Assembly: GCF_003075525.1 (NCBI RefSeq)
Contig: NZ_QDDR01000002.1
Location: forward strand, 186,001 to 250,000
Source of the DNA: Pararhodobacter aggregans
GTDB taxonomy: Bacteria; Pseudomonadota; Alphaproteobacteria; Rhodobacterales; Rhodobacteraceae
Length of the DNA: 64,000 nucleotides
Direction of reading: 5' to 3'
The position numbers and the translations under genes were made by a program. A model generated the notes under the pieces. That model made no database searches. It had not been told where the DNA came from and worked only from the letters and a program-made list of their open reading frames with translations. This document shows, in pieces, positions 1 to 62,568 of this stretch (positions are counted from its first letter, which is position 1; each line of letters starts with the position of its first letter).

Positions 1-1977
<1,977 letters not shown>

Positions 1978-2165
1978 TCATGCCGGCTGGTTTCCGGACT
2001 TGGAACGTGTGGCTTGCGCCGCGACCCTGACGCCTTCCCGGGAACTCCTCCCCAGTGGCCCTTGTCGAGGTCCTCGTTCCTTACCGTTGCGGGGGCAGTG
2101 CCGGAATTACACCGGCTTCCCAATTATCGAACGCTGAAAGTCCCCAGCGCCCGCACCTTGCATGT
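1978..2165 (-). ncRNA. Cobalamin riboswitch in the leader of the Rieske oxygenase operon
   Basis: On the minus strand the conserved cores appear in canonical order: AGGTGC (2159-2153), GGGAAGCCGGTG (2121-2110), CTGCCCCCGCAACGGTAAGG (2098-2079), the B12-box GGCCACTGG (2060-2052), GGGAAGGCG (2039-2031) and the 3' core AGTCCGGAAACCAGCCGGCA (2000-1981). Order and spacing match the adenosylcobalamin aptamer class. About 125 bases separate its 3' end from the oxygenase ATG and contain several GC-rich hairpins that could act as an expression platform by sequestering the GGAG ribosome site or terminating. The outer boundaries are estimates. Confidence 0.93.
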
Positions 2166-37248: not shown

Positions 37249-38121
37249 GTGATCGATATTCAACCTCTGGCCATTCTGCGCGAGATCGACCGGACAGGCA
37301 GCCTGACCCTTGCCGCCGACCGCTTGAACCTGACCCAATCGGCGGTCAGCCATGCGATCCGGCGGTTCGAGGAGCGTCATGGCGTGAAGCTCTGGGAGCG
37401 CGAGGGGCACAAACTCCGACTCACGCAGACGGGAGACTATCTGCTGGGGCTGGCGCTGCGGGTGCTGCCACAGCTTGAACACGGCGCGACGGTGCTTGAC
37501 GACTATGCGCGCGGGCGGCGCGGCGCGATCCGCGTGGGAATGGAATGCCATCCCTGCCAGGACTGGCTGATGCGGGTCGTGGACCCGTTTCTGGCGCAAT
37601 GGCCCGATGTCGATCTGGACGTGACCACGGCCTTCCAGTTCGGCGGGCTGGCGGCGCTGCTGGGCCATGAGATCGACGTTCTGGTCACGCCCGACCCGGT
37701 TGAGCGTCCGGGGCTCGAATACACGCCCGTCTTCGATTACGAACTGGTCCTGGCGGTGGCCGAGACACATCCTCTGGCAGGCAAACAGCGGGCCGCGCCC
37801 GAAGATCTGGCAGGCGAGACCCTGATTACCTATCCCGTCTCGCGCGAGAGGCTGGATATCTACACCCGCTTCCTTGTCCCGGCCCATGCCTTGCCGCGCC
37901 GCCATCGCACGGTGGAGACGACCGATCTGATGCTGCGACTGGTGGCCTCGGGCCGCGCCGTCAGTGCGACCCCCGACTGGCTTTTGCGCGGGGCCAAAGG
38001 GGTGACGGGTGTGCGGCTTGGCGACGGCATCGCGAAATCCATCCACCTGGGTCGTCGCTCGGGCAAGACGGCCGGCTATCTGGACGGGTTCATCCATCTG
38101 GCCAAGGCCGTCCAGATCTGA
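37249..38121 (+). CDS. LysR-family regulator, MetR-like
   Basis: A 290-residue LysR regulator with an N-terminal winged helix (AADRLNLTQSAVSHAIRRFE near residue 24) and a C-terminal effector-binding domain starting IRVGMECHPCQDWLM near residue 93. The CHPC segment and overall pattern are those of MetR, which senses homocysteine and activates met genes. It lies directly upstream of and co-oriented with mesX-mesD, supporting that role. It follows the dctM remnant by about 150 bases and looks intact. Confidence 0.85.
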   Translation: MIDIQPLAILREIDRTGSLTLAADRLNLTQSAVSHAIRRFEERHGVKLWEREGHKLRLTQTGDYLLGLALRVLPQLEHGATVLDDYARGRRGAIRVGMECHPCQDWLMRVVDPFLAQWPDVDLDVTTAFQFGGLAALLGHEIDVLVTPDPVERPGLEYTPVFDYELVLAVAETHPLAGKQRAAPEDLAGETLITYPVSRERLDIYTRFLVPAHALPRRHRTVETTDLMLRLVASGRAVSATPDWLLRGAKGVTGVRLGDGIAKSIHLGRRSGKTAGYLDGFIHLAKAVQI

Positions 38122-38423: not shown

Positions 38424-39401
38424 ATGACCAGAGACGTCACCTTCACGATCAGGAGCCTTCGTTTCGACGAGGAGTATGCGCCAGCCGACAGCACCCGGCT
38501 CACCACCAATTTCGCGAACCTCGCGAGAGGGGAGAACCGGCAGCAGAACCTGCGGGGGGCGCTGCGGATGATCGACAACCGCTTCAACGCCCTCGCGCCA
38601 TGGGACAATCCCGAGGGCAACCGCTACGGCGTCGCGCTGGATATCGTCTCGGTCGATCTGGATATTGACGGCAGTGGCAGCGCCTTTCCGGCCATCGAGG
38701 TCCTGAAGACGACGATCCTGGACCACAAGGCAGGCGCGCGGATCGACGGGCTGGTCGGCAACAACTTCTCCTCCTATGTGCGGGACTATGACTTCAGCGT
38801 GCGGCTGCCCGCGTACAACAAGGATCGGTCAGGCTTCGTCATTCCGGACGACTTCGGCGATCTGCACGGCAAGCTGTTCAGGAGCTTCGTGTCTTCCGAC
38901 ACCTACAGCGCCCGTTTCCGCAAGCCGCCGGTGATCTGCCTGAGCGTCTCGCACAACAAGGTCTATCGGCGGACGGCCAATCACCACCCCGTCATGGGCT
39001 TTGAATACCTCGCGAACGAACCATCGCTCACCGAGGAATATTTCCGGAAGATGGGGATGCAGGTCCGCTACTTCATGCCCCCGGAGAGCGCGGCGCCGCT
39101 GGCCTTCTATTTCTTCGGCGATCTGCTCAACGATCACACCAATCTGGAACTGATCGGCACCATCGCCACGATGGAGACCTTCCAGCGCATCTACCGGCCC
39201 GAGATCTACAACGCCAATTCTGCCGCCGGTGCGGTCTATCGGCCGAGCCTCGAACAGCCGGATCATTCGCTGACCCGCATCGTCTATGACCGCGAGGAAC
39301 GCAGCCGACTGGCCGCCGAGCAGGGCAAATTCGCCGAAGACCACTTCATCAAGCCGCATCGGGCCGTTCTGGACGCATGGTCCGCCCGGTTCGCCGCCTG
39401 A
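38424..39401 (+). CDS. mesX: MesX (DUF1852), partner of the folate-independent methionine synthase MesD
   Basis: A 325-residue DUF1852 protein. The opening FTIRSLRFDEEYAPADSTRL, then TTNFANLARGENRQQNLR, and the conserved LDIVSVDLDIDGSGSAFPAI near residue 77 are the family pattern. In described systems MesX is required, together with oxygen, for MesD to make methionine from homocysteine without folate or cobalamin; its chemistry is unresolved. AGGAG lies 10 bases before ATG 38424; an upstream frame adds 10 unlikely residues. It is followed 29 bases later by mesD. Confidence 0.88.
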   Translation: MTRDVTFTIRSLRFDEEYAPADSTRLTTNFANLARGENRQQNLRGALRMIDNRFNALAPWDNPEGNRYGVALDIVSVDLDIDGSGSAFPAIEVLKTTILDHKAGARIDGLVGNNFSSYVRDYDFSVRLPAYNKDRSGFVIPDDFGDLHGKLFRSFVSSDTYSARFRKPPVICLSVSHNKVYRRTANHHPVMGFEYLANEPSLTEEYFRKMGMQVRYFMPPESAAPLAFYFFGDLLNDHTNLELIGTIATMETFQRIYRPEIYNANSAAGAVYRPSLEQPDHSLTRIVYDREERSRLAAEQGKFAEDHFIKPHRAVLDAWSARFAA

Positions 39402-39430
39402 CCCACCGCGAGACATACGAGGTAAATTCA

Positions 39431-40459
39431 ATGACCAAGCTGCTCCCGACATCGACTGCCGGAAGTCTCCCCAAACCCTCCTGGCTGGCCGAGCCCGAAA
39501 AGCTCTGGTCCCCTTGGAAACTCGAAGGCCCGGCGCTTGTCGAAGCCAAACGGGATGCCTTGCGTGTGACCCTCGCCGAACAGGAAGGCGCGGGCATCGA
39601 CATCGTCTCGGACGGTGAACAGACGCGCCAGCATTTCGTCACCACCTTCATCGAGCATCTGACCGGTGTCGATTTCGAAAAGCGCGAGACGGTGAAGATC
39701 CGCGACCGCTATGAGGCGAGCGTGCCCACCGTCGTGGGGGCGGTCTCCCGCGACAAGCCGGTCTTCGTCGAGGATGCGAAATTCCTGCGCGCGCAGACCG
39801 ACAGCCCGATCAAATGGGCGCTGCCGGGGCCGATGACGATGATCGACACGCTCTACGACGCCCATTACCGCAGCCGTGAGAAACTCGCCTGGGAATTCGC
39901 CACCATTCTCAATCAGGAAGCCCGCGAGCTTGAGGCTGCCGGGGTCGATATCATCCAGTTCGACGAACCCGCCTTCAACGTGTTCTTCGACGAGGTGAAC
40001 GACTGGGGCATCGCCACGCTCGAGCGGGCGATCGAAGGGCTGCAATGCGAGACGGCCGTCCATATCTGCTACGGCTACGGCATCAAGGCCAATACCGACT
40101 GGAAGAAGACCCTTGGCTCGGAATGGCGCCAATATGAGCGGACCTTCCCCAGGTTGCAGGCCTCCTCCATCGATCTGGTTTCGCTGGAATGCCACAACTC
40201 CCGGGTTCCGATGGACCTGATCGAGCTGCTGCGCGGCAAGAAGGTGATGGTCGGGGCCATCGACGTGGCGACCAATACCATCGAAACCCCGGAAGAGGTG
40301 GCCCGGACCCTGCGCAAGGCGCTGCAATTCGTGGATGCCGACAAGCTCTATCCCTGCACCAATTGCGGCATGGCGCCGCTTTCCCGCGATGTCGCGCGGG
40401 GCAAGCTCAAGGCGCTCGGCGCGGGGGCTGCTATCGTCCGGCGGGAGCTTTCGGCCTGA
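39431..40459 (+). CDS. mesD: Folate-independent methionine synthase MesD (core MetE domain)
   Basis: A 342-residue protein equal to the C-terminal catalytic half of cobalamin-independent methionine synthase MetE, without the folate-binding N-terminal half. It begins LLPTSTAGSLPKPSWL. The zinc-site regions are VHICYGYG near residue 212 and YPCTNCGMAPLSRDVA near residue 309, and QFDEPAFN near residue 176 binds homocysteine. Pairing with MesX marks it as MesD rather than MesA-C. GAGG lies 8 bases before the ATG. The methyl donor is not known from sequence. Confidence 0.88.
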   Translation: MTKLLPTSTAGSLPKPSWLAEPEKLWSPWKLEGPALVEAKRDALRVTLAEQEGAGIDIVSDGEQTRQHFVTTFIEHLTGVDFEKRETVKIRDRYEASVPTVVGAVSRDKPVFVEDAKFLRAQTDSPIKWALPGPMTMIDTLYDAHYRSREKLAWEFATILNQEARELEAAGVDIIQFDEPAFNVFFDEVNDWGIATLERAIEGLQCETAVHICYGYGIKANTDWKKTLGSEWRQYERTFPRLQASSIDLVSLECHNSRVPMDLIELLRGKKVMVGAIDVATNTIETPEEVARTLRKALQFVDADKLYPCTNCGMAPLSRDVARGKLKALGAGAAIVRRELSA

Positions 40460-60884: not shown

Positions 60885-62444
60885 TCAGAAATCGGTCGGC
60901 GCGCCGCCCTCTTCCTTGCGGCGGGCGACGAAGGCCGCCAACTCCTCGCGGATCGCCGGATCCATCGGCGGGGCCTCGAACCCGTCGATCAAGCCCCGGG
61001 CGATGCGATGGGCGCGCTCGGGGCTTTCGACGGCGCCATCCTGGGCCCAGGCCTCGTAATTGCGCCAGTCGCTGGCGATGGGGTTGTAGAAGGCGGTCTG
61101 ATAGCGCGCCTGGGTATGGGCGCAGCCGAAGTAATGCCCGCCCGCGCCCACCTCGCGCACCGCGTCGAAGGCAATGGCATCGGGATCGGTGGCGAAGGTC
61201 TCGGGCTCCATGTAGCGCTGGATCATCTGCAACACTTCGCAATCCATGACGAATTTCTCGGGACTGGCGATCAGCCCGCCCTCCAGCCAGCCCGCGGCGT
61301 GATAGACCATGTTGGTGCCGGACTGCACCGCGGCCCAGAGGGAATTCGACGTCTCCCACATCGCCTGACCGTCGGGGACGTTGGCCGTGCAGACGCCCGA
61401 AGATCTGAGCGGCAGCCCGTAGAACCGCGCCAGCTGCCCGGTGATCTGCGTCGCGCGCATGTATTCGGGCGTGCCGAAGGCGGGCGCGCCGGTCCGCATG
61501 TCCACGTTCGAGGTGAAGGTGCCGATCGCCACCGGACAGCCCGGCGCCACGTATTGCAAGAGTGCCACGGCGGCCAGCCCCTCGGCAATGCTCAGCGCCA
61601 CGGCGCCGGCCATGGTCACGGGCGCCATCGCCCCCGCCAAGGTGAAGGGCGTGACGACCACCGGCTGACCGCGGCGGGCGAGCCTGAGCGCGCCGTCGAT
61701 CATCGGGAAATCATGCTTCAGCGGGCTGACCGAGTTGATGTTGGTGTACATCCGCGGCGAGGCCTCGAATTCCGCATGGCTGAGCCCGCCGGCGATGCGC
61801 ACCATTTCCATCACGTCCTCGACCCGCTCGCGGCCCAGCGAATAGGCGTGGCAGACCTTGTCGGTGAGGGTCAGCTTTTCAAACAGGCAATCGAGATGGC
61901 GGACCGAGGGGTGGATGTCGATCGGCTCGACCGGATAGCCGCCGGCGATATGGATGCAGTTGAAGACCTGCGTCAGCTTCATGAAATCGCGGAAGGTTTC
62001 GAAATCGCCGGGCCGCTTGCCGCGCACGAGGTCCCAGGAATTCGGTGGACTCGAGACATTGACGAAAACCATGTGCCCGTCGCCGATCACCACCTGACGC
62101 TCGGGGTTGCGCGGGGTGATGGTGAAGGAGGCGGGCGCCCGGCGCACCATCTCCATGACGAAATCCTCACCCATCCTCACGTTCTGGTCGGCGACGCGGC
62201 ACCCGGCCTGACGGAAGATCGCCAAAGCCTCGTCGTTGAGGAATTCGATGCCGATCTCGGACAGGATCCGCATCGCGCCCTTGTGGATCGCCAGCACGCC
62301 TTCGGGATCGACGGGCTCGGTCGGCCGGTCGGGGTTCTTCGGGATCCGCCAGGGCATCTGCTCGAGGTGAAAGCCGCTCACCCTGCGCGCATTGCCCTCG
62401 CGCCCGCCGCTCCGCCGCCTGCGCCCCGCGCTCTCGTCGCCCAT
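60885..62444 (-). CDS. Trimethylamine methyltransferase (MttB) family protein, non-pyrrolysine type
   Basis: A 519-residue MttB-superfamily TIM-barrel protein. Family landmarks include HKGAMRILSEIGIEFLNDEA near residue 54, SVSPLKHDFPMIDGALRLAR near residue 237, and the C-terminal EVGAGGHYFGCAHTQARYQT near residue 432. There is no in-frame amber codon, so it belongs to the non-Pyl branch that includes glycine-betaine methyltransferase MtgB; those move a methyl group from a quaternary amine to a corrinoid protein. GGAG lies 6 bases before ATG 62444, favoured over 62459. No corrinoid protein gene is in the window. Confidence 0.9.
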   Translation of the reverse strand: MGDESAGRRRRSGGREGNARRVSGFHLEQMPWRIPKNPDRPTEPVDPEGVLAIHKGAMRILSEIGIEFLNDEALAIFRQAGCRVADQNVRMGEDFVMEMVRRAPASFTITPRNPERQVVIGDGHMVFVNVSSPPNSWDLVRGKRPGDFETFRDFMKLTQVFNCIHIAGGYPVEPIDIHPSVRHLDCLFEKLTLTDKVCHAYSLGRERVEDVMEMVRIAGGLSHAEFEASPRMYTNINSVSPLKHDFPMIDGALRLARRGQPVVVTPFTLAGAMAPVTMAGAVALSIAEGLAAVALLQYVAPGCPVAIGTFTSNVDMRTGAPAFGTPEYMRATQITGQLARFYGLPLRSSGVCTANVPDGQAMWETSNSLWAAVQSGTNMVYHAAGWLEGGLIASPEKFVMDCEVLQMIQRYMEPETFATDPDAIAFDAVREVGAGGHYFGCAHTQARYQTAFYNPIASDWRNYEAWAQDGAVESPERAHRIARGLIDGFEAPPMDPAIREELAAFVARRKEEGGAPTDF

Positions 62445-62568
62445 GATGCACTCCGCCATGACTGGATCGGAGCCTAGAGCCGCGCCCGGCGCCCCGGCAA
62501 GCGCAGTCTTGTCAGCGTCCCTGTGGTGTTCGGTCGCTCAGGGCGTCGCCGCCCGCGGGTTGCAAGGC

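Follow-up and report, generated by a model that had tools for sequence, protein, structure and literature searches.

A cobalamin riboswitch precedes a two-gene operon for a Rieske oxygenase and its reductase in the 64-kb stretch of the Pararhodobacter aggregans genome analyzed here (hereafter the window; G000:C2:186001-250000), and genome comparison suggests that the oxygenase is a stand-in for occasions when its B12-dependent counterpart is unable to function. We consider it quite probable that the riboswitch lowers the production of this predicted O2-dependent N-demethylase when cobalamin is plentiful, and that the enzyme replaces the MtgB-MtgC-MtgD system when cobalamin is short. Direct results of the computation are the aptamer and the operon, the class of the enzyme, the preservation of the leader across many genomes and its strong association with MtgC.

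The cobalamin aptamer and its leader

An earlier note on this DNA placed a cobalamin aptamer at 1978-2165 on the minus strand and proposed a covariance search with the Rfam Cobalamin model. The search gave a highly significant match to RF00174 at 2176-1967 of the minus strand (cmscan; 105.7 bits, E 1.9e-25, gathering score 31.5), within which the span first read is contained and which is the only Rfam family to reach its gathering threshold in the 64-kb window. The match extends over model positions 1-189 of 189, that is, over the whole aptamer in both sequence and structure, and lies 115 nt from the oxygenase start codon. Our own model R1, which includes the window sequence itself, assigns 136.8 bits to the same aptamer (L007:15984-16157).

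In nature, cobalamin riboswitches generally act as OFF switches. Directly after the aptamer core, a hairpin (ACCGC-GGGTG-GCGGT; 1957-1971, minus strand) is kept at the same place in 22 aligned leaders and possibly represents P13 or the expression platform; its covariation in these leaders is modest (0.205 against 0.119 in shuffles, with none of the 500 shuffles as high), and its three two-sided pair changes are within chance (85 of 500 shuffles). Control by an intrinsic terminator was set aside because none was found in 1800-2450. The signal for control of the oxygenase by an anti-Shine-Dalgarno element is weak: 15 of the 25 leaders contain CCUCC-type 5-mers (7.5 expected), and pairing between anti-Shine-Dalgarno and Shine-Dalgarno sequences in the leaders is no stronger than in shuffles (mean z -0.4).

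The oxygenase and reductase genes

The oxygenase gene (619-1851, minus strand) begins, by our own choice of start codon, with the ATG at 1851, 8 nt downstream of a likely Shine-Dalgarno sequence (GGAG, 1860-1863, minus strand), and its stop codon ends at 619; the product of 410 aa contains the Pfam domains Rieske and Ring_hydroxyl_A. By 4 nt (ATGA, the stop and start codons) it overlaps the reductase gene (1-622, minus strand), which continues past the left edge of the window to G000:C2:185540 and encodes a GbcB/Stc4-like protein of 360 aa (L007:13540-14622) with FAD, NAD and 2Fe-2S domains (FAD_binding_6, NAD_binding_1 and Fer2 of Pfam). Domains and coordinates alike bear out the initial reading of a minus-strand aptamer upstream of a Rieske oxygenase and a reductase.

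The description of the two proteins as GbcA/GbcB-like stood only in part. GbcA (NF058607, 488 bits) and GbcB (NF058606, 381 bits) are indeed their best NCBIfam matches, but both fall below the equivalog cut-offs of 670 and 500 bits, respectively; we therefore set aside the name GbcA for the oxygenase, and glycine betaine stays a putative substrate. The enzyme resembles Stc2 and 3n0q instead: the closest solved structures are 3n0q, a putative dioxygenase (733 bits), and the stachydrine demethylase Stc2 (635 bits), with CntA at a distant 119 bits. We take 3n0q to be TM1040_3219; the megaplasmid of Ruegeria sp. TM1040 encodes a gene whose product is 73% identical to the window oxygenase. The genome of P. 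aggregans contains no second close copy, its two other matches being 29-30% identical over about 190 residues.

The Rieske ligands are C85, H87, C105 and H108, and the iron ligands H203, H208 and D358, accompanied by an asparagine, N198; the mapping onto window residue numbers, and the assignment of D358, are our own. The metal ligands and N198 are invariant in the 20+13+29+37 rows examined. According to the accessible part of PMC7948474, group Vb is recognized by an asparagine at the position where group Va has an aromatic residue. Judged by these sequence features, the window protein is an alpha subunit of group Vb, the betaine N-demethylases that include Stc2 and GbcA, and it most likely demethylates a betaine.

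Distribution of the leader

In a family-level sample of 120 genomes, that of P. aggregans included, the Rieske protein has a match in 96 genomes (22 at 56% identity or more), and the aptamer lies just upstream in 9 of the 30 best loci. We also scanned named genomes, with an aptamer model built from 16 leader aptamers; among the best 80 of 596 loci, 25 carry a strong aptamer, located 108-184 nt upstream of the match, and 2 a weak one. The carriers are Ruegeria, Sulfitobacter, Phaeobacter, Shimia, Marivivens, Loktanella, Pacificoceanicola, Marinibacterium, Rhodobacter, Gemmobacter, Roseibium, Hoeflea, Labrys and Rhizobium, as well as metagenome-assembled genomes (MAGs) of Rhodobacteraceae and Rhodospirillales. 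A survey of the leader in related genomes had been suggested in the earlier note, and its outcome is positive, as the leader recurs ahead of the orthologous oxygenase across three alphaproteobacterial orders. On a protein tree of 106 rows it needs 11 changes, compared with 28.1 in shuffles, none of 500 being as low; stretches L105, L111, L121, L146 and L161, which are the same as loci of the family sample, were used once in the trees. No aptamer was found ahead of the pSymA genes of S. meliloti and S. medicae or the plasmid gene of Salipiger abyssi.

The gene of Ruegeria sp. TM1040 also has an aptamer upstream (L178:7661-7829, plus strand, megaplasmid NC_008043; 124.7 bits with model R1). This gene, presumably the one that encodes the protein of PDB 3n0q, is annotated only as a ring-hydroxylating dioxygenase.

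Two kinds of oxygenase locus

Comparison of the neighborhoods of the 25 riboswitch loci and 51 other named loci, some of which stop at contig ends, reveals two kinds of surroundings. A StcD-like flavoprotein is encoded nearby in none of the riboswitch loci vs 20 of the others, a LysR gene in 1 vs 18, and a TetR gene in 0 vs 13. The surroundings of the window operon (stretch L007) hold neither a StcD-like flavoprotein nor a dedicated regulator and in this differ from a stachydrine catabolism locus.

The division extends to the enzyme itself. Residue 222 aligns with Ala223 of Stc2, which is drawn contacting the product in Fig. 1 of PMC10952381. Threonine occupies this position in 29 of 33 riboswitch enzymes, 1 of 29 StcD-linked enzymes (a group to which L179 and L180, annotated stc4 loci, were added by hand) and 22 of the remaining 37. 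We read this split as one between stachydrine enzymes and enzymes that act on a different betaine, in all likelihood glycine betaine. Threonine is found in 69 of 71 enzymes from the family of Rhizobium leucaenae, with and without the riboswitch.

These data bear on the proposal that the operon is controlled by B12 and acts on some other N-methyl substrate, for example, proline betaine, with another MttB paralogue as its corrinoid partner. Such an arrangement would fit the position of Stc2 as the nearest characterized enzyme by sequence, the presence of up to 16 MttB paralogues per genome and of more than one candidate partner in every eligible genome, and the status of the MttB in the window as a paralogue without an assigned substrate; it is nevertheless unlikely given the distribution of threonine at the Ala223 position and the lack of StcD near any of the 25 named riboswitch loci.

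Co-occurrence of the riboswitch with MtgC

The corrinoid-dependent route in aerobic Rhodobacterales was described by Mausz et al. 2025 (PMC12478193). According to the accessible part of that report, proteomics and mutants show that Ruegeria pomeroyi demethylates glycine betaine with the stand-alone cobalamin protein MtgC and with MtgD; MtgB (PF06253) is induced, and MtgC and MtgD also serve methionine synthesis. If the isozyme switch proposed in the earlier note is real, a riboswitch on the oxygenase should pay off only in genomes that also encode a B12-dependent enzyme for this job, and the leader is predicted only alongside MtgBCD. We scored MtgC with TIGR02370 and called it at 150 bits or more, a line drawn between stand-alone proteins (about 159-210 bits) and MetH (about 116-144 bits, in long frames); all calls lie below the curated cut-off of 215. 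Presence alone in the 120-genome family sample was set aside as evidence, since MttB (113/120) and MtgC (nearly all) are close to universal there and therefore not telling.

Among the named genomes, MtgC is present in 24 of 25 with the riboswitch vs 29 of 51 others (Fisher test, 3.8e-4, kinship ignored), and MetH is found in 10/25 vs 35/51 (0.025, kinship ignored); with the family sample added, the MtgC counts are 31/32 and 36/61. Within the Thr-222 type, a criterion picked after the riboswitch/StcD split was known and before MtgC was examined within it, MtgC is present in all 28 riboswitch genomes vs 6 of 22 without the riboswitch (Fisher test, 1.5e-8, kinship ignored), and MttB-family genes in 28/28 vs 7/22. 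Phylogenetically independent pairs run 2.2-2.3 in the predicted direction and 0.2-0.3 in the other over all 93 rows, and 2.1-2.7 and 0.0 within the Thr type. The exceptions are six Thr-type genomes with MtgC and no riboswitch (L106, L112, L118, L124, L148 and L149) and one riboswitch genome without an MtgC match (L161/G118), an 84% complete MAG. The contrasts exclude L110 and L154, which have weak aptamers (40 and 31 bits) and MtgC; the MtgC counts exclude L143 (a partial corrinoid match) and L177 (a second copy in the genome of L108), and the plasmid loci L178-L181 lie outside the scoring. A B12-dependent counterpart is thus encoded in the same genomes, and it would presumably do the same job.

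The R. leucaenae family was taken as a second test, the prediction having already been stated. A match was found in 147 of 297 genomes, and 700-1500 bases of upstream DNA were examined for the 120 close orthologues (at least 68% identity). An aptamer precedes 85 of these 120, four of them poor at 55-65 bits; two chance matches of 10-12 bits were disregarded. Scoring for MtgC covered 80 of these genomes, namely, all 35 without an aptamer and 45 of the 85 with one, chosen before MtgC was known; G165, included in this set, already had an earlier MtgC score. It is present in 41 of the 45 genomes with any aptamer match vs 2 of the 35 without (Fisher test, 1.0e-15, kinship ignored), and Rfam detected no aptamer in any of the 35 aptamer-less upstream regions. 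For good aptamers alone the count is 41 of 41 (Fisher test, 1.7e-19), the division into good and poor having been made after MtgC was seen; poor means under 65 bits (4 aptamers), and L195/G258, at 67.6 bits, was kept among the good despite its damaged core.

The four MtgC-less exceptions are precisely the poor aptamers and form one clade. They lack the GCCACUGG...CCGGGAAGG core (the B12-box core), with the remainder still readable, and look like decaying riboswitches in an MtgC-less lineage; they are L249, L261, L265 and L271 (genomes G479, G366, G291 and G426), each ahead of the orthologous oxygenase. In G258, MtgC is present and the aptamer core is damaged, and the close relatives G371 and G299 possess MtgC and have no aptamer ahead of the oxygenase. 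Each of the latter two carries a second oxygenase, 48-49% identical.

On a joint tree of 119 rows, in which G137 and G165 represent L156 and L157, supported independent pairs number 6.3 in the predicted direction and 0.0 in the other (sign test, median p 0.031); in four versions the median p is 0.031-0.0625, the independent pairs being few. The earlier note had proposed that the cell resorts to the corrinoid-independent oxygenase only when B12 is short, and the part of this proposal that genomes can speak to agrees with the data: the riboswitch is kept mainly where MtgC exists (28/28 vs 6/22; 41/45 vs 2/35). A B12-repressed, O2-dependent demethylase replacing a corrinoid-dependent one is a well-supported prediction from these comparisons.

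The tie to MtgC is not expected if the oxygenase is instead switched on along with B12 biosynthesis because betaine demethylation yields glycine and one-carbon units for the corrin. Betaine feeding raises B12 yields in industrial producers and is said to stimulate ALA, glycine and methionine (PMC8123684, accessible part), and cob and uptake genes carry the same kind of riboswitch; however, CobN does not track the leader, scoring over its cut-off in 23 of 28 riboswitch and 21 of 22 riboswitch-less Thr-type genomes. The five riboswitch genomes apparently devoid of CobN, which may use a different chelatase or have a gap in the assembly, keep the leader. We therefore set aside the capacity for B12 synthesis as the driver and regard such a supply of precursors as an improbable purpose of the operon.

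Other B12-related genes in the P. aggregans genome

The genome (G000; 5.08 Mb in 32 contigs) holds six cobalamin aptamers. Besides the one ahead of the oxygenase operon, there is one about 6.5 kb away that precedes genes for a class Ib ribonucleotide reductase, of which NrdE was identified by NCBIfam and the neighbors nrdI and nrdF were named by eye; the oxygenase operon converges with nrdF. The other four lie near apparent B12/cobalt uptake and cob genes, assigned by eye, with CobN confirmed at C21:16716. The nrd aptamer (G000:C2:181331-181521, plus strand, left of the window) is strong, at 147.3 bits.

Proximity to nrd genes raises the question of whether the leader was simply captured beside them and serves no purpose under selection where it now stands, ahead of the oxygenase. 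This is very unlikely: nrdE lies near 4 of 9 riboswitch loci vs 1 of 12 others in the family sample and G092 has two back-to-back riboswitches, but nrd genes are near only 3 of the 25 named riboswitch loci, the aptamer has persisted in three orders while decaying in the MtgC-less clade, and the signature found in 9 of 9 oxygenase aptamers (AAUUGGGAA, CAACGGU, CCGGAAACCAGCC) is missing from the nrd aptamers of G000 and G092. The two are of different types, and we set aside the idea that the leader is a copy of the nrd riboswitch.

In G092, three cobalamin riboswitches are packed into 4.2 kb, located ahead of the nrd genes, the oxygenase operon and a split metH. The last of them (L048:12066-12233, plus strand) lies about 540-550 nt ahead of the two-part metH, with a small ORF between; a riboswitch ahead of the B12-dependent metH is odd for an OFF switch, and G092 also has a stand-alone MtgC. 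In the G118 MAG (L051:5327-11867, minus strand), the riboswitch is followed on one strand by the oxygenase and reductase genes, a two-part metH, a further cobalamin riboswitch and then the nrd genes, possibly a joint operon for B12 shortage.

The components of the predicted corrinoid route all map outside the window. The earlier note had pointed to an MttB homologue in the window as a member of the family of MtgB; the homologue is real (60885-62459, minus strand; PF06253, 733 bits) and is probably not MtgB, an identification that we set aside. Its identity to the MtgC-adjacent MtgB of four genomes (two Rhizobium, Hoeflea and a Rhodovibrionaceae MAG) is 39-42%, vs 61-65% for a copy on contig 15 (C15:37912-39456), which is the better MtgB candidate of the genome. 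Candidates for MtgC (C1:799156-799860; 79-81% identical to those of the four comparison genomes) and MtgD (C2:44654-45820) are also present; the Mtg candidates have Pfam and NCBIfam support, with the models for MtgC below their own cut-offs. The MttB of the window is a solitary gene, one of four PF06253 genes in the genome, and among solved structures it scores best with the putative trimethylamine methyltransferase 4yyc (378 bits, vs 321 bits for glycine betaine methyltransferases).

Another pair of genes, outside the oxygenase operon, is related to the B12 theme. Behind a LysR gene (37249-38121) lie, on the plus strand (38424-40459), mesX (38424-39401; PF08908 MesX, 571.5 bits), encoding a putative oxygenase partner of B12-free methionine synthase, and a gene for a mesD-type core methionine synthase without the folate-binding domain (39431-40459; PF01717, 128.8 bits; NF006589, 688.8 bits, cut-off 392). 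In tests with Acinetobacter and E. coli, such a pair produced methionine without B12 but with O2 (PMC7857596, accessible part). With the nrd genes, mesXD and the oxygenase operon, the cell appears able to make deoxyribonucleotides and methionine and to demethylate betaine by O2-dependent routes that need no B12. The nrd genes and the oxygenase operon are behind cobalamin riboswitches and mesXD is not, since the Rfam scan of the 64-kb window detected no aptamer ahead of it.

Proposed mechanism and implications

We propose that, with cobalamin plentiful, the leader lowers the expression of the two-component N-demethylase, whereas under shortage the oxygenase and reductase would be made and would remove a methyl group from a quaternary amine, releasing it as formaldehyde. 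The substrate would most likely be glycine betaine, proline betaine being possible, and the oxygenase would stand in for the cell's own corrinoid-dependent MtgB-MtgC-MtgD methyltransferase. We infer the repression by cobalamin, the substrate and the switch of flux from the sequence comparisons above. The second cobalamin riboswitch next to the operon, ahead of nrdE and its neighbors for a B12-independent ribonucleotide reductase, provides supporting context.

Full-length MetE is rare (2 of 50 genomes), so many of these cells would still be impaired in methionine synthesis if B12 were lost completely, and those without mesXD or the like would still lack methionine. Partial shortage is therefore the condition in which the switch more likely matters, since it could then leave MtgC for methionine synthesis. 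An extension of this idea, which we regard as possible but somewhat short of probable, is a rationing circuit: MtgC would serve both methionine and betaine, and at low cobalamin the riboswitch would shift betaine to the O2 enzyme, sparing the cobalamin protein; this circuit might have spread in several alphaproteobacterial lineages and been dismantled upon loss of the corrinoid route, which would have left decayed riboswitches behind in one clade or more.

Glycine betaine is a major osmolyte, and MtgBCD has recently been proposed as a major oceanic route of its demethylation (PMC12478193, accessible part). If our proposal is correct, the route of betaine demethylation would depend on the B12 supply in the same cells, which would tie together betaine, methionine and the exchange of B12 between algae and bacteria and provide a genomic marker for cells able to change route. 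For the 3n0q gene family, the proposal also suggests a function and a mode of regulation, and it offers an explanation for the presence of two demethylation routes in one genome.

Comparison with known systems

In agreement with the earlier note, which knew of no description of an isozyme switch for betaine demethylation, we found no earlier account of a B12 riboswitch on a betaine demethylase in the open-access literature (few subscription journals and no preprints), and no report there of a riboswitch for GbcAB. In the accessible text of PMC12478193, GbcAB is treated as an alternative in bacteria without MtgBCDE, and the word riboswitch occurs only in a reference title on SAR11. The main text of an RNA-regulon survey (PMC3766115, accessible part), the supplements of which may contain the site, includes none of the words betaine, Rieske and dioxygenase.

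Compared with Stc2 and Stc4 of Sinorhizobium meliloti (PDB 3vca and 4qup), the system described here has an oxygenase about 60-68% identical, a similar reductase and the same metal ligands; however, Stc-type loci are accompanied by StcD or by a regulator of the LysR or TetR type and lack the riboswitch that the window locus has, and Stc2 has alanine at position 223 where the riboswitch enzymes mostly have threonine. The glycine betaine monooxygenase GbcAB is the best NCBIfam match for both subunits, below the curated cut-offs in both cases. MtgB/MtgC/MtgD of R. pomeroyi is the B12-dependent route for what is presumed to be the same reaction (PMC12478193, accessible part).

In regulation, the system differs from these enzymes and joins another class. 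Cobalamin riboswitches are known to precede B12-independent isozymes, such as metE and class I ribonucleotide reductase. The aptamer family is the same here, and so would be the logic, a B12-free enzyme made when B12 is short; the reaction under control is, in this case, the demethylation of a quaternary amine. A B12-independent isozyme under a B12 riboswitch is a known principle, of which the predicted betaine demethylase would be a new case.
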